Below are positions 12,395 through 54,089 of a stretch of DNA of 55,464 nucleotides, in pieces. This DNA is from Paludibacteraceae bacterium. Its GTDB lineage: Bacteria; Bacteroidota; Bacteroidia; Bacteroidales; Paludibacteraceae. The stretch's first letter is position 1; each line of letters starts with the position of its first letter. The notes below the pieces were generated by a model that worked only from the letters and a program-made list of their open reading frames with translations, ran no database searches and was not told the origin of the DNA. The position numbers and the translations under genes were made by a program. The stretch spans positions 1 to 55,464 of the forward strand of contig JAFYWK010000066.1 of NCBI GenBank assembly GCA_017558065.1. Direction: 5' to 3'.

Positions 12395-13558
12395 ATGAAA
12401 CAATATAGTCTAATAGAATTATGCCAAGGCATTGAGCAGGTGCTCCAAGCCGAATTGGAGGAGAGCTACTGGGTGCGTGCCGAGATTGCTTCGCTCACCG
12501 AGCGCGGACACTGCTACATGGAGTTGGTGGAGAAAGCCAAGAACAATAGCATTGCCGCCAAAGTGCGTGCCACATGTTGGCAGCAGGTTTATCACCTGCT
12601 ATCGGCGTATTTTGCCAATGAGACAGGGCAGACACTCTCCGTGGGTATGCAGGTGTTGCTGCAAGTGGAGGTGAGTTTTCATGCGGTATATGGGCTGAGT
12701 CTGAATATCGTGGGCATTGATCCCACCTTCACGTTAGGCGATTTGGCTCGACAACGCCAGCTCACTATCCAGCGCTTGCAAGAAGATGGTGTGATGGACT
12801 TGCAGCGGGCAATGAAGATGCCCCTGTTGCCTCGTCGCGTGGCAGTCATCTCGGCGGCGGATGCCGCGGGCTATGGCGACTTCTGCCATCAGTTGCAGAG
12901 CAATAGTAGCGGTTTTAGCTTCCGCACGCAACTCTTCCCTGCCCTTATGCAAGGCGAACAATCGCCCGCCTCTATCATAGCAGCACTGGAGCAAGTAGCA
13001 GCGGTGATGGATGCATACGACGTAGTGGTGATTGTTCGCGGCGGCGGCGCGACTACCGACCTGAGGAACTTCGACGACTATAGTCTGGCGTTCCACTGTG
13101 CTAATTTCCCGTTGCCCATCATTGCGGGTATTGGTCATACACGCGACATCAGTGTCGTGGATATGGTTGTGCACACCAGCGTCAAGACCCCTACCGCGGC
13201 TGCCGAATGGCTCATTGCCGCAATGCAAGAGCAAGCCGACCGATTGGGGGACCTGCAATGGCGTTTGCAACGCGTAGCACAAAACGCCATCCGCAGACAT
13301 CAGAACATACTGGATAACCTATGGCAATCATTGCGCTTCGCCACCCAGCGGCGCTTGCACCGTCAACGCACCCAACTCGAACTCTGGACAAAAACGATCG
13401 CACTTCATTCGCCCGAACGTATCTATCGCATGGGGTATAGTCTGACGACTGTGAACGGTAAGATTGTCAAGAGCATTCACGATGTAAAAGCAGGCGAGCA
13501 GTTGGAGACACATGTAGCAGATGGCGTTATACGGTCGGAGGTGAAAAGTGAAAAGTGA
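12395..13558 (+). CDS. xseA: exodeoxyribonuclease VII large subunit
   Basis: The 387-residue protein has an N-terminal OB fold (YWVRAEIASLTERGHCYMEL) and the ExoVII catalytic region with AVISAADAAGYGDF and VVIVRGGGATTDLRNFDDY. A coiled helical part and a short C-terminal GYSLTT segment follow. ExoVII degrades single-stranded DNA. The final SEVKSEK is encoded by GTGAAAA word repeats. The small-subunit gene xseB, often next door, is not seen here. The last codons overlap the GTG start of the next gene. Confidence 0.93.
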   Translation: MKQYSLIELCQGIEQVLQAELEESYWVRAEIASLTERGHCYMELVEKAKNNSIAAKVRATCWQQVYHLLSAYFANETGQTLSVGMQVLLQVEVSFHAVYGLSLNIVGIDPTFTLGDLARQRQLTIQRLQEDGVMDLQRAMKMPLLPRRVAVISAADAAGYGDFCHQLQSNSSGFSFRTQLFPALMQGEQSPASIIAALEQVAAVMDAYDVVVIVRGGGATTDLRNFDDYSLAFHCANFPLPIIAGIGHTRDISVVDMVVHTSVKTPTAAAEWLIAAMQEQADRLGDLQWRLQRVAQNAIRRHQNILDNLWQSLRFATQRRLHRQRTQLELWTKTIALHSPERIYRMGYSLTTVNGKIVKSIHDVKAGEQLETHVADGVIRSEVKSEK

Positions 13559-13563
13559 AAGGT
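13539..13563 (+). repeat. GTGAAAA words at the xseA/ComEA junction
   Basis: GAGGTGAAAAGTGAAAAGTGAAAGG contains three copies of GTGAAA(A). It encodes the xseA C-terminus, its stop, and the GTG start of the following gene. Confidence 0.6.
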
Positions 13564-14541
13564 AGGAAGATCATATTTTTATTGACGCGTGAGCAGTGGC
13601 TGGGCATGGCGATATTGGTCATATTGGCAGGTTTGACCCTGTTCTGCTTGCACCGTTTTCAGCCGCCGAAGGAGAGCAGCATACAAGTCAGCGACTCCAC
13701 ACGCACGCGTTTTGCGGTCTATCAAGCACAACAGGATAGTATCCGACAAGCACAACGCAAAAAGCAATATACGCGCGACACGATTGCCATACACATGCAG
13801 GCGTTTGACCCCAATACAGCAGATAGCAGCACATTGGTACACCTCGGGCTGAAACCCTGGCAAGTGAGCAACATGCTCAAATACAGAGCCAAGAATGGCC
13901 GTTACCGCAAAGCGGAGGATATGCGCAAGTTATACGGCATGACCGATAGTATGTACCATGCACTATTGCCTTATATTCAGATTGATACGCTGGCTATCCG
14001 TCTGTTTCGAGATAGTCTGTACCGCGCCCAACGCCCTCGGATATCTCCCAGTAGAGCAGACAGCGACACGCTCACATGGGATACAATGCCGCAGTACGTG
14101 AGTCACAAGCGCGATACGGTGCTCAATCTGCGCACGGCAGATACGACCGAACTGAAGATGATTCCAGGCATTGGCACCTACCGCGCCAAACAGATTGTGC
14201 GCTACCGCGAGCAGTTGGGTGGTTTCGCTTCGGTGGAACAGTTGCGCGAGATTAAAGCCCTGCAGCCATTGCTCAAAGATAGTCTATCCGCAGATAGTCT
14301 ATTGGCGCATTTTGTGCTGGATAGCGTGATTGTAGAGCCACTGCGAGTGAATAGTATGCGCACGGAACGACTGCAAAAACACCCCTACCTCAGCTTTGAG
14401 CAAGCCAAAGCCATATACGAACTCCGCCGAAGAAAAGTGCATATAGAGAGTATCGACCAACTGCAACGTTTAGATGGATTTACGCAAGAAGATTGGCAGC
14501 GGTTAGCCCCCTATCTCAACTTTGAGAAACGAGAAAAATAG
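13555..14541 (+). CDS. ComEA-like helix-hairpin-helix protein, membrane anchored
   Basis: A GTG at 13555 gives one N-terminal membrane helix (about 16-34) and a 328-residue protein with three helix-hairpin-helix units. These are near residues 82-128 (FDPNTADSSTLVHLGL), 195-240 (LNLRTADTTELKMIPGIGTYRAKQIVRYRE) and 275-325. The middle one is a full HhH with the GIG hairpin. ComEA-type proteins bind DNA nonspecifically outside the membrane. The gene overlaps xseA by 4 bases. Function is inferred from domains and the comEC context. Confidence 0.85.
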   Translation: MKGRKIIFLLTREQWLGMAILVILAGLTLFCLHRFQPPKESSIQVSDSTRTRFAVYQAQQDSIRQAQRKKQYTRDTIAIHMQAFDPNTADSSTLVHLGLKPWQVSNMLKYRAKNGRYRKAEDMRKLYGMTDSMYHALLPYIQIDTLAIRLFRDSLYRAQRPRISPSRADSDTLTWDTMPQYVSHKRDTVLNLRTADTTELKMIPGIGTYRAKQIVRYREQLGGFASVEQLREIKALQPLLKDSLSADSLLAHFVLDSVIVEPLRVNSMRTERLQKHPYLSFEQAKAIYELRRRKVHIESIDQLQRLDGFTQEDWQRLAPYLNFEKREK

Positions 14542-14569
14542 CGCTAAAAACGAGTTTTTCTTCGTTTTT

Positions 14570-14601
14570 CTTGCATATTTACATTTTTTGTAGTACCTTT
14601 G
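14570..14601 (+). promoter_or_regulatory. promoter of the sigma-54 activator-lptE genes
   Basis: CTTG (14570-14573), 20 bases, TACCTTTG (14594-14601), 69 bases before the ATG at 14670. Confidence 0.75.
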
Positions 14602-14669
14602 TCTGCCATTTTGGCAGATTGTGTAACATTAAACATGGAGAACCTGAAACTTTGAACATTTGATTGATT

Positions 14670-15905
14670 ATGGAACAACAGGAATTACAAACTATCAAAC
14701 AGCGATTCAGTATCATAGGTAACAGCCCATTGATTAATCGCGATATAGAAGTGGCCGTGCAAGTAGCTCGCACCGATTTGAGCGTACTCATCACGGGTGA
14801 GAGCGGTGTGGGAAAAGAGCATTTCCCACAGATTATTCATCACTATTCTACACGAAAACACGGTCCATACTTTGCTGTCAACTGTGGTGCTATACCCGAA
14901 GGCACCATTGATAGCGAACTTTTTGGTCATGAGAAAGGTGCCTTCACCGATGCCAAAGCAGATAGAAAAGGTTACTTTGAGATTGCCAATGGCGGCACAT
15001 TGTTCTTAGACGAAGTAGGCGAACTGCCCCTGCAAACACAAGTGCGTCTGCTGCGCGTGTTGGAAACGGGAGAGTTTATCCGCATGGGAGCCAGCCAAGT
15101 GCAAAAGACCAACGTGCGCGTGGTGGCAGCCACCAATCTGGACATGAAACGCGCCATCTCAGAAGGCCGCTTCCGCGAGGATCTGTACTACCGATTGAAC
15201 ACGGTGGAAATCAAGGTGCCAGCATTGCGTGATAGAAAAGATGATATACCTCTACTCTTCCGCAAGTTCGTGGTGGATTTTAGTGACCGTTACCGCATGC
15301 CCGCCATCCGACTGACGGAAGAGGCAAACGAAATGCTCAAGAACTACTACTGGAATGGCAATGTGCGCCAACTCAAAAATGTAGCTGAGCAAATCAGCAT
15401 TATCGAAAAGACGCGAGAGATATCTGCCGACACACTGCGCAAATACTTGCCTACCAACGAGATGCACAGCGGGCTGGCATTGCTGGGTGCACATACACAA
15501 ACGAGTCAAGACACCTATATGAACGAACGCGAATTGCTCTACAAGGTGCTCTTTGACATGAAACGCGACATGACAGAAATGCGACAACAACTGAATGGTT
15601 TGCTCTCATCAGCCGCTACACCCGCTCACCGCCAAACAGAGATTGTGGTAGGTAAACACGCCGAATACGAATCGGTGGAAGAGATAAAAGATACTTTTGA
15701 GCAACCCTCTAAGCCAATCCCCTCGTCTGAGGTAGAAGATATTATCATGGATGATGAGGCACCCCTCTCAACTATGGAAGATATCGAACGCGAGAGTATT
15801 CGCCGAGCACTGGAGCGCAACAACGGAAGTCGCAAAATGGCTGCTGGCGAATTGCACATATCGGAGCGAACGCTGTATCGCAAAATCAAAGAATACGGAT
15901 TATAA
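14670..15905 (+). CDS. sigma-54 interacting transcriptional activator
   Basis: ATG 14670 is preferred over the TTG two codons upstream. The 411-residue protein has no receiver domain. It starts at once with an AAA+ core: Walker A GESGVGKE, the sigma-54 contact loop at residues 90-95, Walker B TLFLDEVGE, and R-finger sequences. A linker and a C-terminal Fis-type helix-turn-helix (NNGSRKMAAGELHISERTLY) follow. The contact loop reads GAFTDA in place of GAFTGA (Asp94), which could alter sigma-54 binding. It sits before lptE and secG, an arrangement I recall from other Bacteroidales. Confidence 0.9.
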   Translation: MEQQELQTIKQRFSIIGNSPLINRDIEVAVQVARTDLSVLITGESGVGKEHFPQIIHHYSTRKHGPYFAVNCGAIPEGTIDSELFGHEKGAFTDAKADRKGYFEIANGGTLFLDEVGELPLQTQVRLLRVLETGEFIRMGASQVQKTNVRVVAATNLDMKRAISEGRFREDLYYRLNTVEIKVPALRDRKDDIPLLFRKFVVDFSDRYRMPAIRLTEEANEMLKNYYWNGNVRQLKNVAEQISIIEKTREISADTLRKYLPTNEMHSGLALLGAHTQTSQDTYMNERELLYKVLFDMKRDMTEMRQQLNGLLSSAATPAHRQTEIVVGKHAEYESVEEIKDTFEQPSKPIPSSEVEDIIMDDEAPLSTMEDIERESIRRALERNNGSRKMAAGELHISERTLYRKIKEYGL

Positions 15906-15907
15906 AT

Positions 15908-15950
15908 CACACTACACCATGCTACACCACACTACACTACGCTACTCCAT
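15908..15950 (+). repeat. CTACACCACACTACAC words at the lptE start
   Basis: CACTACACCATGCTACACCACACTACACTACGCTAC carries the complement of the 20-bp unit at 7220. The ATG at 15919 lies inside it. The same ATGCTACACCACACTACAC string begins sufD at 42397. Confidence 0.8.
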
Positions 15951-16452
15951 CATGTTATGGATATGGACTCTTGGTTCGCTATTTCTGTTGAATAGTTGCT
16001 CCATATCCTATAAATTCAATGGCGCCAGCATTGATTATGCGACTACAAAAACCATTTCGGTGGCAGACTTCACCAACAATGCAGCATTGGTATATCCCCC
16101 ATTGGCGACCAATCTCACCGATGGCATCAAGGACCTGTACCAACGGCAAACGCGCTTGGAGCAGGTACGCCGAGGCGGAAACTTGGAATTGGCTGGCGAG
16201 ATCACGGGCTACAACCTGACTCCTATGGCAGTATCGGCAGATAGTTATGCGGCAGAAACCAAACTGACTATCACAGTGAAGGTTCGATTCACCAACAACG
16301 TGGCACCAGAAGAGAGCTTTGAAAAGACCTATTCTGCCTACCAAACATTTGATGCATCGCAGATGCTCACCGATGTGCAAGATGAACTCTGCAATACGAT
16401 GATTACTGAGATTGCAGAACAAATCTACAACGATACGGTAGCAAAATGGTAA
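15919..16452 (+). CDS. lptE: LptE-family outer-membrane lipoprotein
   Basis: The start may be ATG 15919 (inside a repeat) or ATG 15952. The second gives a cleaner signal peptide, and both lead to the lipobox LLNSC. The mature part (SISYKFNGASIDY, then NLTDGIKDLYQRQTRLEQV and a basal ELAGEITGY) matches the Bacteroidetes LptE/LPS-assembly lipoprotein family. LptE plugs the LptD barrel that inserts lipopolysaccharide. It follows the sigma-54 activator by 13 bases and precedes secG. Confidence 0.85.
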   Translation: MLHHTTLRYSIMLWIWTLGSLFLLNSCSISYKFNGASIDYATTKTISVADFTNNAALVYPPLATNLTDGIKDLYQRQTRLEQVRRGGNLELAGEITGYNLTPMAVSADSYAAETKLTITVKVRFTNNVAPEESFEKTYSAYQTFDASQMLTDVQDELCNTMITEIAEQIYNDTVAKW

Positions 16453-16456
16453 AAAA

Positions 16457-16488
16457 TTTGGTCATATCAAAAAAAAGTTGTACCTTTG
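16457..16488 (+). promoter_or_regulatory. promoter of secG
   Basis: TTTG (16457-16460), 20 bases, TACCTTTG (16481-16488), directly after the lptE stop and 64 bases before the secG ATG. Confidence 0.85.
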
Positions 16489-16552
16489 CACCCCGATATC
16501 CGTTTTTCGATATCCCATAACCGACAAAATAAACTTTTTAAACAATAATATT

Positions 16553-16891
16553 ATGTACATTTTATTAACTATTTTGATTATCATTGCAGCAGTATTGCTC
16601 ATTCTTTTGGTGTTGGTACAAAACAGCAAGGGTGGCGGTTTGGCTGCAGGTTTCGCAAGCGGCAACCAAGTGATGGGCGCTCCTAAGACAGCAGACTTCT
16701 TGGAGAAAGCAAGTTGGACATTGATTGGTATCATTTTGGCTTTGAGCATCCTCGCAGTAGGTGTGAACAAAGGTCAAGGCGCTGAAGTTGAGGCTGGTAG
16801 CGCTATCACCGAGCAAGTACAAGAGGCTTTCGAGGCAGAGCAAGCTGCTCAAGCAGTACCTGAGTTTGAGACAGAGGAAGTGGCTGAATAA
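16553..16891 (+). CDS. secG: preprotein translocase subunit SecG
   Basis: ATG 16553 is chosen because the promoter overlaps the longer frame. The 112-residue protein has two membrane helices (about 1-20 and 52-72) and the SecG signature VLVQNSKGGGLAAGF between them. It has an acidic glutamate/alanine-rich tail typical of Bacteroidota SecG. It is part of the SecYEG channel. The stop abuts, with no spacer, the stop of the convergent glycosyltransferase gene. Confidence 0.95.
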   Translation: MYILLTILIIIAAVLLILLVLVQNSKGGGLAAGFASGNQVMGAPKTADFLEKASWTLIGIILALSILAVGVNKGQGAEVEAGSAITEQVQEAFEAEQAAQAVPEFETEEVAE

Positions 16892-17704
16892 TCACCACTT
16901 GCGGCGGAAGATACCTCCCACAATACTAATGATTGTATAAAAGGGATAAAGTATCTCAAGCAACAAAGCAGTAAAGAGAGAGACGGACGCGTCTCTCTTT
17001 TTTATGAGCGCATATTCGATGGGAAACTTCAGCAGTAACACCAACGGGCAACACAACTGCAACAAATTAGCCATCAGCATGATTGCTCCGCACAGCAGGA
17101 TATCTCTATCGGTGTATTTTGGAGCTTTGCCTGCCCAACGCATACGCTGATGGAAGAACGCACGCCATGAGGTGTGTGGACGTACGATGGCAGTCATCTC
17201 TTCGCTTACGCAGACGGATATATTGAGTCCGCGGCGCTTGAATGACTCCAAGAGAAACATATCATCGCCGCTGGGTATCTCAGGGTGTAAGTCGGGATAG
17301 GACTCTAACCACCTATCGCGTTTGGCAATGAGGTTCGCTCCGCTACACATGACCGCATGTCCCCGCTTGGCTGTCTCGATGGTCAGTTGCTGAATAGCCG
17401 CATACTCCGCTATCTGCAAGCGCTCCAATAGCAATGGGCGCTCATTCTCCGATTCCATCCGTAAAGGCAGGATGAGGAGATCGGACGCCTCGTAGAGGCT
17501 ATTGGACAGTGTTCCACCTATTGGACGCTCGCATAACGAGCTATTGGCTATAGGAGCAGGTAATACATCGTCATCCATCATCCACACATACTCCGTCTTC
17601 GCAGCAGAGATGAGGCGATAGAGAGCATGTTTCTTGCCCTTGCCTTCGTCATTGATTCCCTTTCGTGGAACGACTATAGTAATATGCTCTTGAATATTTT
17701 TCAT
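16892..17704 (-). CDS. glycosyltransferase family 2, N-terminally short
   Basis: ATG 17704 gives 270 residues. It begins at EHITIVVPRKGINDEGKGKKHAL and goes straight to the YVWMMDDDV acidic motif. A usual GT2 has about 60-80 more residues before this point, including the nucleotide-binding VIVPARNE-type strand. ETAKRGHAVMCSGANLI, SGDDMFL (the acidic base) and HQRMRWAGK (the QxxRW-like motif) are present. Three C-terminal membrane helices follow. The upstream gene stops only 40 bases away, so the missing part is not nearby. It may be inactive. A repeat-derived segment lies at about residues 52-70. Confidence 0.75.
   Translation of the reverse strand: MKNIQEHITIVVPRKGINDEGKGKKHALYRLISAAKTEYVWMMDDDVLPAPIANSSLCERPIGGTLSNSLYEASDLLILPLRMESENERPLLLERLQIAEYAAIQQLTIETAKRGHAVMCSGANLIAKRDRWLESYPDLHPEIPSGDDMFLLESFKRRGLNISVCVSEEMTAIVRPHTSWRAFFHQRMRWAGKAPKYTDRDILLCGAIMLMANLLQLCCPLVLLLKFPIEYALIKKRDASVSLFTALLLEILYPFYTIISIVGGIFRRKW
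17499..17553 (-). repeat. CTATTGGAC word/hairpin mosaic in the GT2 gene
   Basis: CTATTGGAC occurs at 17499 and 17518, then the hairpin GCTCGCATAACGAGC (17527-17541), then CTATTGGCTATAGG. The whole block is in frame inside the glycosyltransferase gene. Confidence 0.75.
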
Positions 17705-17744
17705 TTTAACCTTCCTCGCTTTCAACCTGTAGAATCGTCAAGTA

Positions 17745-19961
17745 TTAGCGCGGAGTAACGCCCGTGCCAGGTTTATTGACTAACGTCAGTTTGCCATCCA
17801 CCAACTGAATACCCTCGTAAGGGTCATTAGCAAGCAGTACATGACCATCCAAGTCGGCATAATCGACCAGCGGGCTGAGCGTTGTAGCCGCAGAGATACC
17901 CGCACTAGTCTCCGTCATACAACCAATCATCACCTGCATACCCAAGTCGCGTGCCAAAGCAATCATCTTACGTGCCTCAGCCACGCCGCCACACTTCATC
18001 AGTTTGATATTGATACCGTCGTAGTAGGGTTGCAAGCCTGCTACATCGGCATAGGTTTGGCATGCCTCGTCGGCGATAATTGGCAGTTCCACCCGCTCGC
18101 AGAGCCAAGCATGTTCCTCGTTCATGTGTTTGGGCATGGGTTGCTCAATCAGCACCACACCCCGCTCTGCCAACCATTGGCACATCTTCAGCGCGTGCTC
18201 CTTGGTGGGCCAACCTTGGTTGGCATCCACGTAGATGGGTTTGTCGCTAATGCTACGGATAAGGTTGATCATACGTTTGTCCTCCGCTTCCTCGCGACCG
18301 AGTTTGACCTTGAGAATCTTCGCCCAGTCAGCCTCGCGCACCTTGAGCAACACAATCGAGTCATTGGCATCGTAGCCAATCGTATAACTGGTGCAAGGGG
18401 TAGCAGCAGGGTTGATGTCCCACATCTGCCATAGAGGTTGCTCGTGTAGCTTGCCATAGAGGTCGTGCAAAGCAATATCAATACTCGCCTTCGCTGCATG
18501 ATTGCCTGGTGACAAGGCATTGACTACCTGCATGATACTATCCACATTCAGTGGCTCGGTGCAGCCGTTGATGACAGGCAGAGCCAACTTTAGAAAAGCG
18601 CAGACCGACTCCTGTGTCTCTTTGAGATAAGGTGGCAAGGCTGCCTCGCCGTATCCTGTTTGGTCGCCCAGCGTGATGCGAGTGAGCACGATGGGGGTTG
18701 TGGTGCGCGTGTTGGTAGAGATACCAAAAGCGTGGCGCAACTCGCCCGTAAAAGGTTCGTAGGTCAGCTGAGCCGTATTGCCACACGATTGGGACAAACC
18801 AAAATACGCCTTATAGATGGCATTGGCTAATGTTTCGATGAGATCTTGATCGGGATTGTACACATATCCATTGGTGATGGCTACGATACCCCAACCATCC
18901 GCTGGGCTCCACATCATGATACTGCGCAATCCGTAGGCGTCTCCCGTATGTCCCACAGGGTAGTTGCCGGGTGTATTGTAGTGAGGATCATCTAGGAAGT
19001 CCACAAACTCCTGGAGGCATAATCCGTATTGGTCTTCGTAGTAGTCGTTTGTTAGCTTAATCCATACGGGTGTCTGCATGGTTTTGGCACTCTCCTCAGA
19101 GATGATTCGCACGCCATTGAGCTGGCCATAGTTCATGTGCATCATCATATAGGTAGCTAAGTCGTACGCGGAGATCTTCACGCCGCCAGTAGGCGAGAAG
19201 ATGGGTGCTGAGTAGCCCATGATGTAATCATCGAGTTGATGTGCTACGCTGCCGTAGGCGTTGGATTCTACGTATTGTCCGTTGCGATAGCGGTATATGG
19301 AAGCACGTCTTGTGCTATCAAGCTCGTCGTTGTTGTGACCTGCATGCAAGCCAAGTGGTGTAATCACGCTATCCTTCACATAGCGGTCGAAACGCACGCC
19401 AGACACCTTCTCGAGAATAGCGCCTGCGAAGTTAAGACCTAGATTCGAGTAGTTATAGCCCGTTCCTGGCGCATAGTCGTAATAGGTGGCACGGCAATCG
19501 CCATTCACGGCAGGATTGATATGGTCGAGCGTGGAATAATTCTCAGGGTCTCGGAAACTGGCTGTATGCGAGAGCACCATGCGCAATGTGATAGGTACCT
19601 CTGGGTGATACGGGTTGCGTACTTGGAAGCCAATGAGTTCGCTCACATCATCATCAAGAGAAATGACACCTTTTTCCACCAACTGCATGAGGGAGGTAGC
19701 GGTGAAGGACTTGGAGATAGATGCGATACGCATGAAATGATTGGTAGTCAAAGGTATTTGACTGTCGAGATTGGCATGGCCAAAGGCCTTTTCATATACG
19801 ATCTGTCCATCTTGGACAACGACAGCTGCGATACCTACTGCTTGGTAGTCGTTCATCACTTGCTGAATAGCTTGGTCGGTGCGTTTCTCTGCGCTTGGAG
19901 CGCAACTCATCATCAGCAATAGCACGCCTGTTAAAGCCACTAAAACATGATTGTTTCTCAT
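17745..19961 (-). CDS. lipoprotein fusing a serine beta-lactamase-like domain to a dipeptide epimerase
   Basis: ATG 19961 gives 738 residues with a lipobox (LLLMMSC, Cys20). Residues about 28-390 form a class C beta-lactamase/DD-peptidase-like domain with SxxK (Ser81-Lys84), YSN (171-173) and HTG (338-340). Residues about 400-738 are an enolase-superfamily dipeptide epimerase: the KVK pair (551/553), metal ligands Asp579, Glu606 and Asp631, and Lys653. Ala-Glu epimerases convert L-Ala-D-Glu from murein to L-Ala-L-Glu. The upstream NlpC/P60 gene could release that dipeptide. The lipid anchor places both activities outside the cytoplasm, which is unusual for the epimerase. All catalytic residues are kept. 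Confidence 0.9.
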   Translation of the reverse strand: MRNNHVLVALTGVLLLMMSCAPSAEKRTDQAIQQVMNDYQAVGIAAVVVQDGQIVYEKAFGHANLDSQIPLTTNHFMRIASISKSFTATSLMQLVEKGVISLDDDVSELIGFQVRNPYHPEVPITLRMVLSHTASFRDPENYSTLDHINPAVNGDCRATYYDYAPGTGYNYSNLGLNFAGAILEKVSGVRFDRYVKDSVITPLGLHAGHNNDELDSTRRASIYRYRNGQYVESNAYGSVAHQLDDYIMGYSAPIFSPTGGVKISAYDLATYMMMHMNYGQLNGVRIISEESAKTMQTPVWIKLTNDYYEDQYGLCLQEFVDFLDDPHYNTPGNYPVGHTGDAYGLRSIMMWSPADGWGIVAITNGYVYNPDQDLIETLANAIYKAYFGLSQSCGNTAQLTYEPFTGELRHAFGISTNTRTTTPIVLTRITLGDQTGYGEAALPPYLKETQESVCAFLKLALPVINGCTEPLNVDSIMQVVNALSPGNHAAKASIDIALHDLYGKLHEQPLWQMWDINPAATPCTSYTIGYDANDSIVLLKVREADWAKILKVKLGREEAEDKRMINLIRSISDKPIYVDANQGWPTKEHALKMCQWLAERGVVLIEQPMPKHMNEEHAWLCERVELPIIADEACQTYADVAGLQPYYDGINIKLMKCGGVAEARKMIALARDLGMQVMIGCMTETSAGISAATTLSPLVDYADLDGHVLLANDPYEGIQLVDGKLTLVNKPGTGVTPR

Positions 19962-46363: not shown

Positions 46364-46398
46364 AAAAAACTCGCCCAGTTCCGAAGAACTGAGCGAGT
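46364..46398 (-). terminator. terminator of the seven-gene operon, UUCG loop
   Basis: On the minus strand, a 6+6 bp stem with one mismatch (46369-46398) closes on the extra-stable C(UUCG)G loop and runs into TTTTT (46364-46368). It lies 111 bases after the sstT stop. Confidence 0.9.
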
Positions 46399-46508
46399 AA
46401 ATGTAATTCAATACATACGATTAATATTGTGTCGTTTTTTAGAAAACACCTGCCAGAAGGAAAGGGATAAATGCTTTCATGGTCAGAAGGATGGCGAGAT
46501 AAGAGTTA

Positions 46509-47771
46509 TTATTTATTTTCGTTCGAAGCGCTTTTTTTCTCGCGCTTCATACGTTCGCGCATATCTGCAGCGATGGTGAATAGGGCATCGCCGCTGGAGT
46601 TGAGGGCTGTCTCTACAGAGTCTTGTACCACACCGATAATAAAGCCCACAGCCACCACTTGCATGGCGATATCATTCGAGATACCAAAAAGCGAACATGC
46701 CATTGGAATCAGCAATAACGATCCGCCTGCTACGCCAGAAGCACCACAAGCACCCAATGTGGCAATAATACTAAGCAACAATGCACTACCAAACGATGCC
46801 TCAATACCCAAGGTGTGGCAAGTGGCGAGCGTCATCACGGTAATAGTGATAGCAGCACCGTCCATATTGATGATACTGCCCAGTGGAATACTGACAGAAT
46901 AGAAATCTTCGTCTATTCCCATGCGTTTGCATAGTGCCATATTCACAGGGATATTAGCCGCAGAGGAGCGAGTAAAAAAGGCGCTTACAGCACTTTCTTT
47001 GAGGCATTGCCACACCAGCGGATAAGGGTTGCGGCGAAGCATGCATCCCACAATAATAGGATTGAGCACTAGCGACACAAGTACCATACAGCCCACTAAT
47101 AGCAAGAGGAGTTTGCCGTATGTGGTAAAGATCTCTAATCCGCTTGTAGATACAGAGGCATACACCAAACCGAGGATACCAAATGGTGCACACTGGATAA
47201 TCCATCCCACCACTTTTGAGACAGCTTCTGCCCAATGGTGTAGGCTGCTAATCGTCTGTTCGCTGGCAACCAACTTCAGTGCTAGACCTATGACTACTGC
47301 CCAAAAGAGGATACTCAGATAGTTGGCATTGGCTATTGCTGTGATAGGGTTGCTCATTATCCCATTCAGAAAATTTCGGAAGACATCACTGAGTTGTCCA
47401 GGTGCGGAACCTGTAGCACTTTCCACATTTACCAATGCGATATTCACTGGAAAAAGGAAACTGCCTACTACTGCTATTACCGCTGCCATGAGTGTAGTGA
47501 GCATATAGAGCAAGATGATGGTGCGGAAGCGGCTGCCGATGCTGTTGCGTGCAGTAGCTACGGACGACATCACCAATATGGCCACCAGCACGGGTGCCAT
47601 AGCCTTGAGCACACCTACAAACAAGTCACCTAATATAGCAATGATACTGTGACCAGGTATCGTAAGAGCGAGTACCGCACCGATGATGATACCGATTAAA
47701 ATACGCAGCATGAGGTTGCTTTTTTGCCATGCTTGTAGGATAGACTGGAGGGTAATAGTGATTTTTGACAT
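46509..47771 (-). CDS. sstT: SstT-type Na+/serine-threonine symporter
   Basis: The 420-residue protein has the dicarboxylate/amino-acid:cation symporter fold with eight membrane helices and two re-entrant loops. SAFFTRSSAANIPVN (the serine-rich loop), PLGSIINMDGAAITI and GACGASGVAGGSLLLIPMAC are typical of SstT. It would import serine and threonine with sodium. It is the last gene of the operon that starts at 54032, 20 bases after the ABC permease gene. Its presence ties the signalling genes to amino-acid uptake. Confidence 0.93.
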   Translation of the reverse strand: MSKITITLQSILQAWQKSNLMLRILIGIIIGAVLALTIPGHSIIAILGDLFVGVLKAMAPVLVAILVMSSVATARNSIGSRFRTIILLYMLTTLMAAVIAVVGSFLFPVNIALVNVESATGSAPGQLSDVFRNFLNGIMSNPITAIANANYLSILFWAVVIGLALKLVASEQTISSLHHWAEAVSKVVGWIIQCAPFGILGLVYASVSTSGLEIFTTYGKLLLLLVGCMVLVSLVLNPIIVGCMLRRNPYPLVWQCLKESAVSAFFTRSSAANIPVNMALCKRMGIDEDFYSVSIPLGSIINMDGAAITITVMTLATCHTLGIEASFGSALLLSIIATLGACGASGVAGGSLLLIPMACSLFGISNDIAMQVVAVGFIIGVVQDSVETALNSSGDALFTIAADMRERMKREKKSASNENK

Positions 47772-47791
47772 GATAGTTCGTTAATAAAATA

Positions 47792-49315
47792 TCATTTGAT
47801 ATGTTTGTATTCTTGAATTTTGTTGCCTATTATATCCAATACTTTAGAGAAAAGCCATGCCAGAATGAAATAGACAATGGCTACCAAAATCAATGGGAAG
47901 AATGCGTCGAAAGTGCGTGAGCGAATGATATCTCCTGCCTGTGTAAGGTCCGCCACAGCGATATATCCTACAATAGAGGTCGTCTTAACCAAGGATATTA
48001 CTTCGCCTTTGTAACTAGGCATAATCAGTCGTAATGCTTGAGGCAGTACGATATATATAAAGGTCTGCGCTTTGGTAAATCCCAATGCCACACCTGCCTC
48101 TGTTTGAGAATGAGGAATATTCTCAATGGAGTGCCTGAAAATCTCGCTGGCGTATGCAGCAAAGTTCATGGAGAAAGTGATGATGGACACAATCACTGCA
48201 CTCATGCCTGATTGTGCTAATACCACATAGAACATCAGCAATAGGAATACCAACACGGGGGTACCTTGCATGATATTAATATACACTTTTGCTATGGAGC
48301 GCAGCGTAAGAGATGGACTCATACTCATCCAACAAACGATAATGGCGAGTAGCGTACCTAATAGGATAGAGAATAGCGATATCCAAGCGGTGATTTTGAG
48401 ACCATCAACAATCAATAGGTACCGATTTTCTTCTATCAGATTTTGGTAGAAAGTCTTTTTTAGTGATTGAAAGAAAGTTTCATTGGTTTCTTCTGCCGTA
48501 TCAGCCACTTCGTCATCAGCAACCGCTACCACTGAGGAGCAAAGGAAATACGTGTCGCTGAAGATAACATTCTTGGCACGCTCTTCGCTATAATTGATGC
48601 TACATACTGCCGCATCGCAGCGTTTGCTAACAACAGCAGGTAGCACACCAGAGAAGTCCATGTCCCACCATTCAATAGGGCGATTGATGTGCTGAGCAAA
48701 CAGGGTCATTATTTCTACTTCTAAACCAACTAACTTGCCATCTTTGATAAACACAAGCGGTGCGCTACATGAGGTGGTGGCTACACGAAGCGGCTCTCCT
48801 ACAGTAGGCAATGGTATGTCGCTCATGTGAGAGGTTTGTCCGTGTTCGATCCATTTTTCGTATAGTTGTTCGTATTGCCCATCTGCCTTTAGTTGTCGAA
48901 TGAATACATTGAACTCATCGCGCAATGCTTCACTCTCAGGATGGAAGATTGCACCTACATCCGCTGTCATATAGGGTTCTTTCAAGATACGGATTCCGCT
49001 GATGCTCTGCATGTGGAACTTCAATGTGTGTTCATCAAATAGGGCAGCATCGCAGCGATGTGTCTGTAGGCTTTGCAGCAGGCCGATCTCATCGTCGATG
49101 TACATGACATGCATATCAGGGAACTCTTTAGACAGAGCTTCCTCATATACTACGCCTGTGATCACACCTACTCGGCTAGTGCTCAAATCGCGTATTGATT
49201 CGAGTTGATCGATCTTCTTCTGTTGGTCTGTGGCTGCTTGCTTGTCAGCACAAGCAGTCAGAAGAGTTAGACATATGTATGCTAATGTAAGTAAGTATTT
49301 TCTTGTTTTCATCAT
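47792..49315 (-). CDS. amino-acid ABC transporter: substrate-binding and permease fusion
   Basis: The 507-residue protein has a lipoprotein-type signal (LTLLTAC), two substrate-binding lobes, then a GlnP-type permease (about 305-500) with LKITAWISLFSILLGTLLA and the EAA loop EAGVALGFTKAQTFIYIVLPQ. In ordinary SBP_bac_3 proteins the GKLVGLEVEIM...FSGVLPAV lobe comes first and the RVGVITGVVYEEAL...LKADGQYEQLYEKW lobe second. Here the second-type lobe (about 45-160) precedes the first-type lobe (about 178-275), so the domain looks circularly permuted. Polar amino acids are likely substrates. Its ATPase is encoded two genes upstream at 49733-50845. Confidence 0.88.
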   Translation of the reverse strand: MMKTRKYLLTLAYICLTLLTACADKQAATDQQKKIDQLESIRDLSTSRVGVITGVVYEEALSKEFPDMHVMYIDDEIGLLQSLQTHRCDAALFDEHTLKFHMQSISGIRILKEPYMTADVGAIFHPESEALRDEFNVFIRQLKADGQYEQLYEKWIEHGQTSHMSDIPLPTVGEPLRVATTSCSAPLVFIKDGKLVGLEVEIMTLFAQHINRPIEWWDMDFSGVLPAVVSKRCDAAVCSINYSEERAKNVIFSDTYFLCSSVVAVADDEVADTAEETNETFFQSLKKTFYQNLIEENRYLLIVDGLKITAWISLFSILLGTLLAIIVCWMSMSPSLTLRSIAKVYINIMQGTPVLVFLLLMFYVVLAQSGMSAVIVSIITFSMNFAAYASEIFRHSIENIPHSQTEAGVALGFTKAQTFIYIVLPQALRLIMPSYKGEVISLVKTTSIVGYIAVADLTQAGDIIRSRTFDAFFPLILVAIVYFILAWLFSKVLDIIGNKIQEYKHIK

Positions 49316-49323
49316 TATTACAA

Positions 49324-49731
49324 TTATAGTTCCTTTTCTAACGTGAGCACATTTTTTCCATCAATGCGTTCGTATTTTACTTCGTTCATTATTTTGCGAA
49401 TAAGAAAGATTCCCAATCCTCCAATCTGTCTATCATCGGCAGATAGCGTGATGTCAGCATCGGGTGCCTGTGTGGGATCAAAGGCTTTGCCAGAGTCTGT
49501 AAGGATAAATATCAATTTACCTTCCTGCTCTTTGGCTGTGAGGTGGATGTATTCGTGCTCCTCCTTGGGATAAGCATACATTATGACATTCGTGACAGCC
49601 TCTTCTAAGACCAGATTGAGATTCATCACCGTCTTCATAGGTAATGCGAAAGCTTCTCCTACTTCTTCGATAAAAGAGTGCAGGCGATTGATTTCTTCTA
49701 TATTGTTCTTTAAAGCGAGTGTAAGTTCCAT
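49324..49731 (-). CDS. RsbW/SpoIIAB-like serine protein kinase
   Basis: The 135-residue protein is a GHKL ATPase of the HATPase_c_2 class. It has the N-box LVLEEAVTNVIMYAYP, the G1 box LTDSGKAFDP and the G2 box IGGLGIFLIRKIMNE. RsbW-type proteins phosphorylate STAS antagonists and hold an output partner when the antagonist is phosphorylated. A STAS gene and a SpoIIE phosphatase gene are in the same operon. No sigma factor is present. It lies 1 base after the ABC ATPase gene. Confidence 0.93.
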   Translation of the reverse strand: MELTLALKNNIEEINRLHSFIEEVGEAFALPMKTVMNLNLVLEEAVTNVIMYAYPKEEHEYIHLTAKEQEGKLIFILTDSGKAFDPTQAPDADITLSADDRQIGGLGIFLIRKIMNEVKYERIDGKNVLTLEKEL

Positions 49732-49732
49732 A

Positions 49733-50845
49733 TTACTTCTTCTCTTTTAGGGTCTTGTCTTTTAGGGTCAAGCATATACGCAATTGTCCAGTGTCTTCAG
49801 TATGTTGGTATTCAATATTCTGACAGAGTCCTTGGATAATCATCATCGCCAAATCATCGATATTTTCGTCGTTCTCCAATACCTGTTCTACACCTTGTGG
49901 CATGGTGAGTTCGAGGGAAACCTTCTCTCCCTTTTCAGAATAGCGCAATGCTAATTCCACGTCTCCCTTATCTAGTGGCACTACCTTCAGCACTTCTTCT
50001 ACCAGCAACTGCACATTGAATTGTTTTTTCTCGGACAAGAAATACTTTTGGCAGAATCCAATCAAACCGCCTTGCAGTTCGTATAGGTCGTATTGTGCCG
50101 AGTGGATAGTATAACGATAGTCGCGTATGCGGTTGATAAAGACGCGTGTGCGTTCCTGCAGAGGGTTGCCGAATATCTGTTCGGGCGTTCCATCTTCGTA
50201 GATGATACCTTGATCCATATAGAAGATACGCGTACTCACATCGCGTGCAAATCGCATCTCGTGTGTCACAATGATCATCGTCATTCCCTGTTGAGCCAAT
50301 GTTTTGATTACGCCCAACACCTCACTTACCATCGTAGGGTCAAGAGCAGATGTGGGCTCATCAAATAGGATAATCTCAGGGTCCATAGCCAGACAACGCG
50401 CAATAGCCACACGCTGTTTCTGACCACCCGAGAGTTGTGACGGCATTGCATCGGCTTTCTCTACCAAACCGACCATCGCCAAGAGTTCTAAACCGCGTTT
50501 CTTGGCCTCCTCCTTACTCTTACCCAACAATCGGATAGGAGCCAAACAGAGATTGTCGATGATGGATAAATGCTCAAAAAGGTTGAAGCTTTGGAACACC
50601 ATACCCATCTTTTGGCGAATCTTGGTGATGTCTGTTTTAGGCGAGGTAATATCTTCGCCATTCACGAGAATCTGACCGCCAGTAGGTGTTTCCAGCATAT
50701 TCAAACATCTGAGAAAAGTACTCTTACCAGTACCAGAGGGGCCAATGATAGAAATCACTTCGCCACGCTTGATGGTTGTATTCACATCGCGCAGCACTTG
50801 TAGCCCGTTGGAGTATTGTTTTTGTAAGTGTGTAACTTGTATCAT
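49733..50845 (-). CDS. GlnQ-type ABC ATPase fused to a degenerate RsbW-like domain
   Basis: Residues 1-240 are a complete polar-amino-acid ABC ATPase: Walker A GPSGTGKS (35-42), LSGGQ (138-142), Walker [14 protein letters not shown] and the H-loop IIVTHEM. Residues about 246-362 are extra. They run parallel to the RsbW-like protein of the next gene: [12 protein letters not shown] against [31 protein letters not shown] against the beta strands, and [18 protein letters not shown] against IGGLGIFLIRKIMNEVKY. The N-box Asn, G1 Asp and G2 glycines are lost, so it should not bind ATP as a kinase. It may be a docking surface for the STAS protein or the kinase. The domain call is my own reading. Confidence 0.8.
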
Positions 50846-50870
50846 ATTATTTGTTACTTTTTTATCTTAA

Positions 50871-52712
50871 TTAATTTTCCGTACCCTCATAGCGTATAGC
50901 GAGCATGGTAATATCATCGAATTGTGGTGCTTCACCCACGAACTTATCCACATCTTTCTTCACCTCTGCGCAAATGGTTTCTGGGGTGGCATCTTTATGT
51001 TGTTCCAAGATTTTTTGCAATCGCTCTTCACCGTAGAGTTCCTCGTTGAGGTTGGTAGCCTCGGTCACACCATCGGTATAGAGATAAATAGCATCACCAG
51101 GAGCGAGTGTCAATTCGTTTTTGCGATAGCGTACACCCTCCATACCAGCCAATACAAAGCCAGCACGCGATTTGAGGTACTCGTATGTGCCATCTGCATG
51201 TCTTACCAATGGTGGGTTATGACCAGCATTAGCAAATTGCACTTGCCCCGTCTTCGTGTTTAAGATTCCCAACCATGCGGTCACGAACATACCCGCATCG
51301 TTACCCTCGCAGAGCTTGGCATTGGCATGCGTAAACACCTGTTCTACACTCAGTCCCGACTCGGCAAAACTCTTAATAAAAGTCTTGGCTGTCATCATAA
51401 ACATAGCAGCAGGAATACCTTTTCCAGACACGTCTGCCATGAGGAATGCAAGATTCTCGTCGTCCACAAAATAGAAATCATAGAAGTCGCCTCCCACCTC
51501 CTTGGCGGTATGCATGGTGGCAAAGATCTCAAACTCCTTGCGCTCTGGATAAGGCGGAAAGACAGAAGGCAAAGCTGCATGCTGAATGGATTTGGCAAAA
51601 GCCAACTCGGCATCAATACGCTCTTCTGCCTCTTTGATATAGCGTTTTAGGGTATCTACTGTGGCGTTGATATCGTTGGATAATGCATCAAACTCCTCGT
51701 GCGAGCGCACATTCACCACCGTTTCCAAATTGCCATCAGTAATGGCAGATAGAGCATGATTGACTTGGTGCAGATTCTTCACTATCAATCGACGCACCAA
51801 TAGGAAGATCATCACAAACAACAGACCAAAGATAAGGATTTGCATCACTGTCATTACTTTCAGCGACACATTGCGCGACACCATAGCCTCGCTATATGGA
51901 TAGACGGCTATAACCTTATACCCTTCTATCTCATTGTGCATACAGAAACAGCGTTGGAGGGTACCATCTATATAGATTCCCTCTTCAAACATCTCATCCT
52001 TGCCTATCGTGGTCAAGTCCTTGGTCATGGCCGTGACGATAGTCACTGGCTGGTTTTTGTTGTTGGCTCGATCGCTAATGATACGCCATGCGCTATCCGT
52101 AACAATCAAAAATCCACTCTCACCCACATGGCGATTCTTCACCACCTCATTTATCGCTACTTCTATTGCTCGGTAGTAAGCTTCCTCATCATAACCCACT
52201 TGAATAAATCCACCAGCAGCCAAAGTTACTCCTGCGTATTTGCGGGATCTTTGCGCATCAAATCCTATCGGTTGGAAACGCTGCACATATTCGGTTCTAG
52301 CTCCTAATAGAGACCAGAACTCGGATGTTTGTACGCCGCCTTCACCTATAGTATAACCTACAAAATCAGCATTGCTACTAGCTAGAATAACACCTGTAGA
52401 GGAAAAATAGTTGATCTCCGTCACATTGTATTTCTCCAACATGCCTGTTAGCAGTTCTGATGTGATTTTGTCTGCATTGTTCACTTCTGTGGCAACTGCT
52501 CTGGTGAGTATCAGCAGATTCTTATCCGTAACATCCATGATGTCATGACGCACATCTTTGATGTATATATTTAGCAGATTATTTGCACTATCGGTGAATA
52601 ATTTGGTCTGATATTGCCCTAGGAAGACCAAGGTCACAATAAAAGCGATGCCTACTATCAATAGCAACCACTGTTGAAACGAAGTGGATATTTTTTTCAG
52701 TTTATTGCTCAT
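50871..52712 (-). CDS. membrane SpoIIE-type PP2C phosphatase with Cache sensor and HAMP
   Basis: ATG 52712 (MSNKLKK) is preceded by AGGAGGAGTGAT, an unusually strong ribosome site for this phylum. The 613-residue protein has a membrane helix (about 14-34), an extracellular double-Cache-like sensor (about 40-270), a second helix (about 280-302), a HAMP domain (about 303-360), and a SpoIIE/PP2C phosphatase (about 385-613) with EVGGDFYDF, MADVSGKGIPAAMF and DDITMLAIRY. It would remove phosphate from the STAS protein when its external ligand binds. Such Cache domains often bind amino acids, which would suit the transport genes. Confidence 0.93.
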   Translation of the reverse strand: MSNKLKKISTSFQQWLLLIVGIAFIVTLVFLGQYQTKLFTDSANNLLNIYIKDVRHDIMDVTDKNLLILTRAVATEVNNADKITSELLTGMLEKYNVTEINYFSSTGVILASSNADFVGYTIGEGGVQTSEFWSLLGARTEYVQRFQPIGFDAQRSRKYAGVTLAAGGFIQVGYDEEAYYRAIEVAINEVVKNRHVGESGFLIVTDSAWRIISDRANNKNQPVTIVTAMTKDLTTIGKDEMFEEGIYIDGTLQRCFCMHNEIEGYKVIAVYPYSEAMVSRNVSLKVMTVMQILIFGLLFVMIFLLVRRLIVKNLHQVNHALSAITDGNLETVVNVRSHEEFDALSNDINATVDTLKRYIKEAEERIDAELAFAKSIQHAALPSVFPPYPERKEFEIFATMHTAKEVGGDFYDFYFVDDENLAFLMADVSGKGIPAAMFMMTAKTFIKSFAESGLSVEQVFTHANAKLCEGNDAGMFVTAWLGILNTKTGQVQFANAGHNPPLVRHADGTYEYLKSRAGFVLAGMEGVRYRKNELTLAPGDAIYLYTDGVTEATNLNEELYGEERLQKILEQHKDATPETICAEVKKDVDKFVGEAPQFDDITMLAIRYEGTEN

Positions 52713-52713
52713 A

Positions 52714-53733
52714 TCACTCCTCCTTTTCAATGCGAATATATGGGTCGGTATATCCATAGTTGTTTATCTCTTTCTTAGCGACACTAGTCTCGTTTGCACC
52801 AGCTACTATCGACACCCCGTTTAGGTGCAAGTCATTGGAGAACAACTTCACACTCTTAGGGTTATGTTGCATATCGCTTATGGTGAACACTCCACCAGTT
52901 ATCTCCGCTTTCGTCACCAATCGGCATACGCCGTCCGCGAAGTAGTCCAATGCTTGCGCTAGCACCTCACCACCTGCGATATGCGTGAGCTTAGCATTGA
53001 TCGCATCATCCAAACCATAGACGCTGACCTTACCGCCATTGATGGTCAATTGCCCAGAGGTAATCAGTCCCACAGCCATCAACTGTGAGTCGTCGGGATT
53101 AATATGGATATTACCCCCATTGATTTCCAGTTCACTCACACTATATAATCCGTAGGAGATAGGCGAAAAGGAGGCGGTGTAATGTATCGCAATATCTCCG
53201 CCGTTGATAATCATCTTATCTTGTGTCCATAATGCTACGCCCATGAAACTTGCCACCTCCTCATCTGCTGTTTTGATATAGGTATCTATCTTGCCTGACT
53301 CGATGAGCAAAGTGTCCGCTTTGAAGCAACTAGCACGAGCACCTACTGCGAGGCTCCCCTCGCCAGTGACGCTAAGATTTCTAGTAGCGATAGCATTCAC
53401 AGGAGCGTTGTCGCCCAAACCTATTTTGTTATCTCCTTCTAGTTTAATAGTCAGATTTGGAATATTTGACACAACAACAGCATCTGCATCAGGGTCGATG
53501 GTTTCTGTGATATTGGCATTAGTTAGAACAAGAGTACCCGACTCTCGATCACCTTCGTAGCGCACTGCGCCATCGCCGAGGATATCGGATTGGTTACGCG
53601 TAGTGACTTTCACGCCACCCACCCACAACTCGTAGATCTGGTAGTGCTTGTCATACTTATTACACGCAAAAAACATCGTTGCTAGCAAGAGCATTGCCCA
53701 ACAACGAGTGATTATATGTATTTTTCGGTTCAT
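52714..53733 (-). CDS. lipoprotein with beta-helix repeats (DUF4353-like)
   Basis: The 339-residue protein has a lipobox (TMFFAC) and repeated LTINGGKVSV / LEINGGNIHI / MIINGGDIAI units forming a right-handed beta-helix, as in DUF4353 carbohydrate-binding-domain proteins. The N-terminal part (ELWVGGVKVTTRNQSDI, then GTLVLTNANI) is also typical. It is 2 bases from the STAS gene and 1 base from the phosphatase gene, so a partnership with the sensor is plausible, for example capturing a ligand in the periplasm. That link is inferred from position. Confidence 0.8.
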   Translation of the reverse strand: MNRKIHIITRCWAMLLLATMFFACNKYDKHYQIYELWVGGVKVTTRNQSDILGDGAVRYEGDRESGTLVLTNANITETIDPDADAVVVSNIPNLTIKLEGDNKIGLGDNAPVNAIATRNLSVTGEGSLAVGARASCFKADTLLIESGKIDTYIKTADEEVASFMGVALWTQDKMIINGGDIAIHYTASFSPISYGLYSVSELEINGGNIHINPDDSQLMAVGLITSGQLTINGGKVSVYGLDDAINAKLTHIAGGEVLAQALDYFADGVCRLVTKAEITGGVFTISDMQHNPKSVKLFSNDLHLNGVSIVAGANETSVAKKEINNYGYTDPYIRIEKEE

Positions 53734-53735
53734 TA

Positions 53736-54032
53736 TTATTCGATATTCAGAATATCCACGAAACCGGTCATCTCAAACACTTCGTTGATGGTTTCATTGA
53801 CATTTTTGATAAGCATATCCCCTTGCTTATTCATGGTCTTTTGCGCTTGCAATATCACACGCAAGCCAGCAGAGGAGATATAGTCCAATGCTGCGAAATC
53901 CATTACTAGATTAGCAACACCATCCAAACTCTCTTTGAGACACGCCTCCAACTCGGGAGCGGTAACGGTGTCCAAACGACCAATGATTTTCAAGGTAAGC
54001 TCTGTACCATTAAGTGCTTTTTCAATTTCCAT
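53736..54032 (-). CDS. STAS-domain anti-sigma-factor antagonist
   Basis: The 98-residue protein is a single STAS domain: the ELTLKIIGRLDTVTAPEL strand, MDFAALDYISSAGLRVIL with the phosphorylatable serine pair, and a C-terminal VFEMTGFVDILNI helix. SpoIIAA/RsbV-like proteins switch partners according to phosphorylation by an RsbW kinase and dephosphorylation by a PP2C. It is the first gene of the operon, 26 bases after the -7 box. Confidence 0.95.
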   Translation of the reverse strand: MEIEKALNGTELTLKIIGRLDTVTAPELEACLKESLDGVANLVMDFAALDYISSAGLRVILQAQKTMNKQGDMLIKNVNETINEVFEMTGFVDILNIE

Positions 54033-54057
54033 ATGTTATCTTATATTATTTTGCGTG

Positions 54058-54089
54058 CAAAGGTACTAATTTTATTCAAAATATGCAAG
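54058..54089 (-). promoter_or_regulatory. promoter of the partner-switching/transport operon
   Basis: Minus strand: CTTG (54086-54089), 20 bases, TACCTTTG (54058-54065). No other promoter of this type is seen in front of the next six genes, whose gaps are 1-25 bases. Confidence 0.8.

Follow-up and report, generated by a model that had tools for sequence, protein, structure and literature searches.

The window analysed here is the whole of contig JAFYWK010000066.1 (C78 in our numbering), 55,464 nucleotides from a gut bacterium of the Paludibacteraceae (assembly GCA_017558065.1) whose genome comprises 2.44 Mb in 83 contigs. An operon of seven minus-strand open reading frames at 46369-54088 joins a set of partner-switch genes to genes for amino-acid transport. 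All seven are present with family support. They encode a STAS protein, a lipoprotein, a membrane phosphatase of the SpoIIE type, a GlnQ-type ATP-binding cassette (ABC) ATPase with an extra C-terminal domain, an RsbW-like kinase, a solute-binding protein (SBP) fused to a permease, and the symporter SstT. Partner switches are known above all as devices that release sigma factors. We argue that this one is, somewhat probably, a circuit with amino-acid transport as its target, working through STAS on a dead RsbW domain carried by GlnQ.

In this circuit the membrane phosphatase would sense a signal from outside and dephosphorylate STAS, and the RsbW-like kinase would rephosphorylate it as the reset. 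The dead RsbW-like domain that closes GlnQ would be the docking site of dephosphorylated STAS, and STAS docked there would set ABC import without new transcription. We infer the docking, its control by phosphorylation, its sign and the ligand, and likewise any control of SstT, which has no RsbW-like domain in this genome. A first-pass annotation, made from the letters of the window, had already proposed the transporter as the output of the switch. That proposal is upheld in part: it gains strong comparative support, since the GlnQ extension belongs to the RsbW family and RsbW-like domains sit on SDF and MATE transporters at such loci. If the proposal is true, transporters are a new output class for partner switches, and an outside signal could set nutrient import quickly and without transcription.

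The extra domain of the GlnQ ATPase

The window GlnQ protein has 370 amino acids. Its ATPase domain (residues 1-240; 50126-50845, minus strand; PF00005, 1.3e-37) ends near residue 240, and 130 residues remain (49733-50125, minus strand). The first-pass annotation was right to see an extra domain there. It stays under the Pfam cut-offs, with E 0.23 when the whole protein is searched and 0.017 when the domain is taken alone. Profile comparison places it in the RsbW (HATPase_c_2) family as a degenerate member. A profile of 87 GlnQ C-termini, with two identical pairs among them (window and L066, L033 and L080; L numbers denote loci), aligns over its full length with stand-alone RsbW kinases (hhalign 97.9, E 3.5e-12). 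Control profiles of STAS, SpoIIE, permease and SBP give 0.0-0.2 against the same C-termini.

A first iterative search with hidden Markov models (HMMs) was rejected. The RsbW and GlnQ C-terminal models recruited each other, so the test was redone without iteration using RsbW proteins from fusion-free genomes. Ten of the 13 stretches fetched for this set yielded an RsbW and three were dropped. The GlnQ C-termini reach 95.3 (E 2.4e-8) against these ten, and the controls 0.2-0.9. An HMM built only from stand-alone RsbW proteins (12, of which 11 are distinct) matches 18 of the 87 C-termini at a limit of E<=1e-3, and a limit of 0.01 raises this to 27. No shuffled C-terminus out of 1740 reaches 0.1.

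The fused copies are decayed. The N-box, G1 and G2 residues, as we take these motifs and the ATP lid to be named, are retained in all 12 stand-alone RsbW proteins. The N-box Asn, found in 12/12 of those, is kept in 5/87 GlnQ-fused copies and lost in 82. Another residue replaces the G1 Asp in at least 76/87 copies and the GG of the ATP lid is absent in 87/87; these residue counts depend on the alignment. With the N-box Asn mostly lost and the lid glycines gone throughout, the simplest reading is that the fused domain is a reader and not a kinase, one that would bind a partner and not phosphorylate it.

The fusion is not confined to the window. One scan of genome contigs found at least 80 loci, of which 77 are listed loci with the fusion. 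Going by record titles, the matches listed come from Bacteroidales, Clostridia, Coriobacteria and others. They include the isolates Oligosphaera ethanolica, Acetobacterium dehalogenans, A. tundrae, Olsenella intestinalis, Oribacterium and Candidatus Formimonas warabiya, as well as many metagenome-assembled genomes (MAGs). The SBP-permease protein is in the fetched DNA of 65 of the 77, and at some loci permease, SBP, GlnQ and RsbW domain are a single protein. The fused ATPase domains form one clade, with 87/87 inside, 0/18 unfused domains inside and support of 0.86. Within the window's order the C-terminal profile matches 22 of 393 genomes; this profile was built from 8 near sequences and others may be missed. 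All 25 order matches lie in GlnQ frames, that of genome G119 only partly, and the window genome has a single GlnQ fusion. Permeases with fused solute-binding domains were seen as well, four in L077 (6264-10004) and five fused domains each in L094 (5491-10008) and L115 (5404-10008).

Switch genes at the fusion loci and RsbW-like domains on other transporters

The fusion recurs beside switch genes. At least one of STAS, SpoIIE and a separate RsbW is in the fetched DNA of 18 of the 77 listed fusion loci, the sister MAG included; two of the 18 (L115 and L136) have MATE-fused RsbW only. All three kinds of switch gene are present in 7 loci (L069, L078, L094, L103, L105, L111 and L132). SpoIIE is found in 10 of 50 fusion loci, against a chance expectation of 0.86. 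The 50 are mostly those of the 77 with longer DNA, and the expectation was taken from whole-genome SpoIIE counts. In the window's order the fusion stands beside switch genes in genomes G016 (L038), G256 (L154), G402 (L153), G210 (L146) and G238 (L155). G141 has the SBP-permease beside switch genes (L165) and its GlnQ fusion on a different contig. The first-pass annotation would have taken a gene order confined to this strain as refutation. The set does recur beyond the strain, in varying order.

In the window's order SpoIIE is in 28/28 fusion genomes tested (27 with full-length fusions, G119 partial) and in 11/20 fusion-lacking genomes. A cluster of SpoIIE, HATPase and STAS within 5 kb is found in 21/28 fusion genomes vs 0/20 others. 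These were counted by eye, with the SpoIIE rows of G031, G033, G034 and G040 partly unlisted and G152 counted through the STAS domain in a 777-amino-acid frame, and the 20 comparison genomes are those that happened to be listed out of 371 negatives. The window genome itself has one SpoIIE, one HATPase_c_2 protein and one STAS-only protein. Its second STAS domain is in a 577-amino-acid frame, probably a SulP transporter. The genome's only GlnQ fusion thus shares its operon with the one complete switch that was found there.

Domains of this kind are also fused to other transporters. In L207, L208 and L209 the genes for STAS, SpoIIE-RsbW, RsbW-SDF and SBP-permease-GlnQ-RsbW adjoin on the same strand, with the SBP-permease-GlnQ protein of L209 broken into two frames. 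L113 and L114 have two SDF symporters with an RsbW-like N-terminus downstream of the GlnQ fusion, and no switch gene in the fetched DNA. When 116 genomes from the order to which L113 (titled Lachnospiraceae) belongs were searched, full-length relatives turned up in 6, the query genome included; the other five are L206-L210. For L206 and L210 the 13-20 kb fetched show no switch gene. Nine SDF N-termini give 96.6 against RsbW and 97.1 against the GlnQ domain by hhalign. MATE transporters with a C-terminal RsbW-like domain occur in six loci (L095, L096, L103, L115, L132 and L136). PF13581 is over its cut-off in 4/6 of these domains. The N-box Asn is retained in 4/6, so MATE-fused domains may still be kinases. 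L132 has on one strand STAS, SBP-permease, GlnQ fusion, MATE-RsbW, an unassigned stretch, SpoIIE and RsbW. We give even weight to the wider idea that the dead RsbW copy is a portable docking tag, which would put ABC importers and SDF symporters, and in less worn form MATE transporters, under a shared STAS switch in several phyla. The pseudo-RsbW domain is also a simple sequence mark for transporters that may be under switch control.

SstT does not appear to be a fixed part of the system. Among the first 88 loci examined, the HMM found SDF genes only in the window, L113 and L114. Where the fused SDF proteins align with the window SstT, identity in the main alignments is 21-25%.

It is worth comparing the operon with known systems. 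It resembles RsbU/RsbV/RsbW and SpoIIE/SpoIIAA/SpoIIAB in having a PP2C phosphatase, a STAS protein with the conserved serine and a HATPase_c_2 kinase with its motif residues. It differs from them in that neither operon nor genome has a SigB/SigF-type sigma factor and in the inactive RsbW-like copy fused to transporters. Two further precedents are described in published papers. SiaABCD of Pseudomonas aeruginosa is a partner switch with a SpoIIE-type phosphatase, a kinase and an antagonist-like protein acting on a non-sigma output (PMC7647112, PMC8457831), which is a diguanylate cyclase (PMC7647112). The window shares a SpoIIE-type phosphatase, a kinase and an anti-sigma-antagonist-like protein with it. 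However, no GGDEF protein or diguanylate cyclase is among the seven operon proteins, and the window phosphatase scores 79.8 bits with the SiaA model, far below the cut-off of 700. In MlaFB of E. coli a STAS protein binds and regulates an ABC ATPase, a phospho-mimic at the STAS site lowered binding, and how MlaB is regulated was left open by the authors (PMC7367683). Unlike the window system, MlaB binds the ATPase body directly, and the available sections name no kinase or phosphatase for it (PMC7367683). The window ATPase belongs instead to the GlnQ family (best models GlnQ, EhuA and TcyN) and bears an extra RsbW domain, and the window STAS scores 18.4 bits with NF033618 where the cut-off is 90. 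SiaC and MlaB are thus precedents for a STAS-like protein on a non-sigma target, and it is by analogy with them that we favour, as a guess, that STAS docking would switch import on (PMC7647112, PMC7367683). If true, the operon would supply a complete kinase-phosphatase circuit for STAS-ABC regulation, where the authors of the MlaFB work had left the matter open (PMC7367683). We found no description of an RsbW domain fused to a transporter in the available sections of the open full-text literature, a coverage that does not extend to subscription papers. The available part of a review of STAS-only proteins (PMC8256260) has no mention of ABC, MATE, Bacteroid-, SiaC or MlaB.

Points against a transporter output and the rival explanations

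Several observations weigh against a transporter output, beginning with the domain itself. Pfam alone detects an RsbW domain in 5/86 C-termini when the limit is E<=0.01, with 9e-4 as its best value, and searching the PDB with a profile of the GlnQ C-termini gave no match. Pfam alone, phmmer against the PDB and the PDB profile search all failed to give a usable match for the GlnQ C-terminus, so we base the homology on the profile-profile and RsbW-only HMM tests. When the SDF N-termini are compared with the RsbW proteins from fusion-free genomes the match fails, scoring 5.7 for 4 sequences and 9.8 for 9. The loss of the lid may also have removed or altered part of the face through which SpoIIAB grips its STAS partner, so it is by inference that we place STAS on GlnQ.

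The sister MAG is another such point. The nearest named record is Paludibacteraceae MAG RGIG125 (L066) from dairy cattle, with 92.9% DNA identity across 4.4 kb of the operon, and its genome has no STAS match. The contig also diverges from the window within the lipoprotein gene (L066 6043-7441 vs window 53001), so the operon head is not the same in RGIG125, either through assembly or through evolution. In L066 the operon sequence begins within the lipoprotein gene, right behind two AbiEi/AbiEii-like genes (identified by eye only).

It must also be noted that no switch gene was fetched with the fusion at 59 of the 77 listed loci, many of which are short. Several genus members have the SBP-permease and GlnQ fusion alone at the locus, and C-terminal regulatory domains are common on importers. 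One can imagine that the GlnQ C-terminus is merely an ATPase-dimer or substrate-feedback domain, as in MetN and MalK, built on the RsbW fold, and that its adjacency to the switch is a matter of shared expression. We consider this quite unlikely. It does not predict SpoIIE next to 10/50 fusions where 0.86 are expected. An SDF symporter has no ATPase dimer, yet in L207-L209, where STAS and SpoIIE are its neighbours, one carries a domain of this kind.

The switch is also found without the fusion. SpoIIE is in 12/18 fusion-lacking genus-mates, several of which are incomplete MAGs (down to 54%), so a strict co-occurrence of fusion and switch was dropped. In 11 fusion-lacking genus-mates with a fetched cluster there are SpoIIE-HATPase, STAS and RelA-like genes, so the switch exists without the GlnQ-fusion transporter. 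When these 11 clusters are added, the comparison within the order becomes 21/28 vs 11/38 (p = 4e-4); the compared genomes are related and p values describe the counts, not independent events. At a threshold of 1e-20, SpoIIE is missing from one of 49 fusion genomes.

The cluster in these genus-mates is recurrent. It consists of SpoIIE-HATPase, STAS, a RelA/SpoT-like synthetase, an APH-like kinase and an HD_4 hydrolase (L166-L181, L184, and L038 at 13184-18170). L175, at a contig end, and L180 have neither APH nor HD, and L169 has no HD. The STAS of L178 is present and was hidden at first by an overlap filter, and a dCache domain was demonstrated solely in L038. Possibly this cluster puts alarmone synthesis under a phosphorylation switch.

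The main rival to the transporter as output runs the flow the other way. In this reading the transporter would act as sensor. A pseudo-RsbW domain would link ABC ATPase, SDF and MATE to the switch, perhaps by forming a pair with the kinase across the RsbW dimer face, and flux would set the phosphorylation of STAS. The real output would be elsewhere, e.g. an alarmone synthetase. RsbW proteins are dimers, and transporters are known as co-sensors elsewhere. Within the genus the switch usually has RelA-APH-HD beside it, and L038 (G016) has SpoIIE-RsbW, STAS, RelA-like, APH, HD, SBP-permease and GlnQ fusion on one strand. Nevertheless we regard this as unlikely. The window operon has no RelA-like gene and none was found at L207-L209, and SpoIIE already has a sensor region of its own.

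The last rival is transcription, with an ECF sigma factor or another factor as the output and the transporter genes as mere members of the operon served. The outputs of known partner switches are mostly sigma factors. The first-pass annotation held that no sigma factor is present. This stands for the seven operon proteins, none of which is a sigma factor by Pfam, and no SigB/SigF-type sigma was found in the operon or the genome. The claim had to be softened for the genome as a whole, which has six sigma proteins by region 2. None of the six is on the window contig; five are ECF-like proteins on other contigs, present besides the region-3 protein. At L159, moreover, an ECF sigma gene (PF04542, 3.7e-16) and a PrsW protease gene lie behind SpoIIE, RsbW and STAS on one strand. 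Even so we hold a transcriptional output to be very unlikely. The window genome and 7 other genus members have one sigma70_r3 protein apiece. An ECF-like gene is in 4/134 loci and in just 3/57 loci with STAS or SpoIIE (the ECF HMM was seeded from two ECF proteins and some may be missed), in line with the switch genes only in L159. A sigma factor co-conserved as the real output, which the first-pass annotation would have taken as refutation, was not seen. A transcriptional output also leaves the RsbW fusion on GlnQ unexplained.

In some genomes of the Bacteroidales order PrsW-family proteases lie by partner-switch genes, namely in L159 (997-2563), L150 (15950-17537) and L161 (11497-12522). An ECF sigma gene adjoins in L159 and L150.

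Features of the operon and minor observations

The layout in the first-pass annotation, seven minus-strand genes in one operon with gaps of 1-25 bases and a single promoter and terminator, was confirmed. The intergenic gaps are 2, 1, 25, 1, 8 and 20 bases when the second Met of SpoIIE is taken as its start; a start at the first ATG gives a 44-base overlap with the lipoprotein gene. A promoter-like site read from the sequence, TTG-N20-TACCTTTG, is at 54058-54088 on the minus strand and fits what we take to be the Bacteroidota consensus. The intrinsic terminator (46369-46398, minus strand) is a 13-pair stem followed by a T run.

Family models uphold the labels given to STAS, lipoprotein, kinase, SBP-permease and SstT, all on the minus strand. 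The STAS-only protein (53736-54032, 98 amino acids) matches PF01740 at 1.1e-16 and TIGR00377 at 71.4 bits (cut-off 53.45). Its YISSAGLR context aligns with the Ser site of other STAS proteins, and we take this Ser to be the phosphorylatable one. The stand-alone RsbW-like serine kinase (49324-49731) matches PF13581 at 1e-25 and the PDB RsbW structure 6m36 at 2.5e-7, and it retains the N-box, G1 and G2 residues. The best NCBIfam model for GlnQ is NF007027, at 299 bits below its cut-off of 379. The conserved columns that we take to be Walker A, LSGGQ, Walker B and H-loop are all there.

The SBP-permease (47792-49315, 507 amino acids) has SBP_bac_3 (PF00497, 8.6e-27) and BPD_transp_1 (PF00528, 1.9e-19), with TIGR01726 at 63.6 bits over a cut-off of 42.2. 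With its SBP_bac_3, its BPD_transp_1 domain (HEQRo permease) and the GlnQ-type ATPase, the system is like polar amino-acid ABC importers of the GlnHPQ/TcyN family. It is unlike them in having the SBP fused to the permease and a pseudo-RsbW domain on the ATPase. SstT (46509-47771), a Na+/serine-threonine symporter of the SDF family, matches NF010151 at 562.4 bits (cut-off 308), and the RsbW-only HMM finds no RsbW domain in it. The lipoprotein (52714-53733, 339 amino acids) is of the beta-helix type (PF14262 Cthe_2159, 8.5e-9), with a signal peptide identified by eye. This second gene of the operon has no obvious place in the switch, and among the other loci scanned its HMM picks up a relative in the sister MAG alone.

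The membrane sensor phosphatase (50871-52757, minus strand) was first described as Cache-HAMP-SpoIIE. HAMP (PF00672, 2.5e-5) and the SpoIIE PP2C domain (PF07228, 6.7e-55) are confirmed, but the type of the extracytoplasmic domain is unproved and a Cache domain is not established. No Cache family in Pfam matches the protein at E<=1, and a PDB search with the sensor region gave nothing useful. A profile of this region reaches 94.2 against true dCache sensors only when the relatives from L105 and L111 are added; with window and L066 alone it gives 0.7. At L160 an NMT1/THI5-like binding protein (11288-12268; PF09084, 7.1e-40) is encoded directly upstream of the SpoIIE phosphatase, and similar proteins were seen by eye in L157, L159 and L165. 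Such a protein could feed a signal into SpoIIE.

Other proteins with STAS or RsbW domains were noticed near partner-switch genes. A protein of about 420 amino acids with an N-terminal STAS domain lies beside a second ABC transporter in L146 (11526-12779), L147 (3297-4568), L149 (14651-15907) and L160 (4272-5558). The genes of this transporter near SpoIIE, RsbW and STAS include a BPD_transp_2 permease in L160, an ATPase, and ABC_sub_bind in L146 and L160. It is perhaps under a similar switch. Proteins of about 750 amino acids with an N-terminal STAS domain, a TCAD9 domain and kinase-like matches are near partner-switch genes in L147 (15813-18119) and L148 (5922-8159). Lastly, proteins of about 490 amino acids that begin with an RsbW domain and are otherwise unassigned are found in L148 (8219-9700) and L163 (5731-7194), and by HMM also in L156, L158 and L164.

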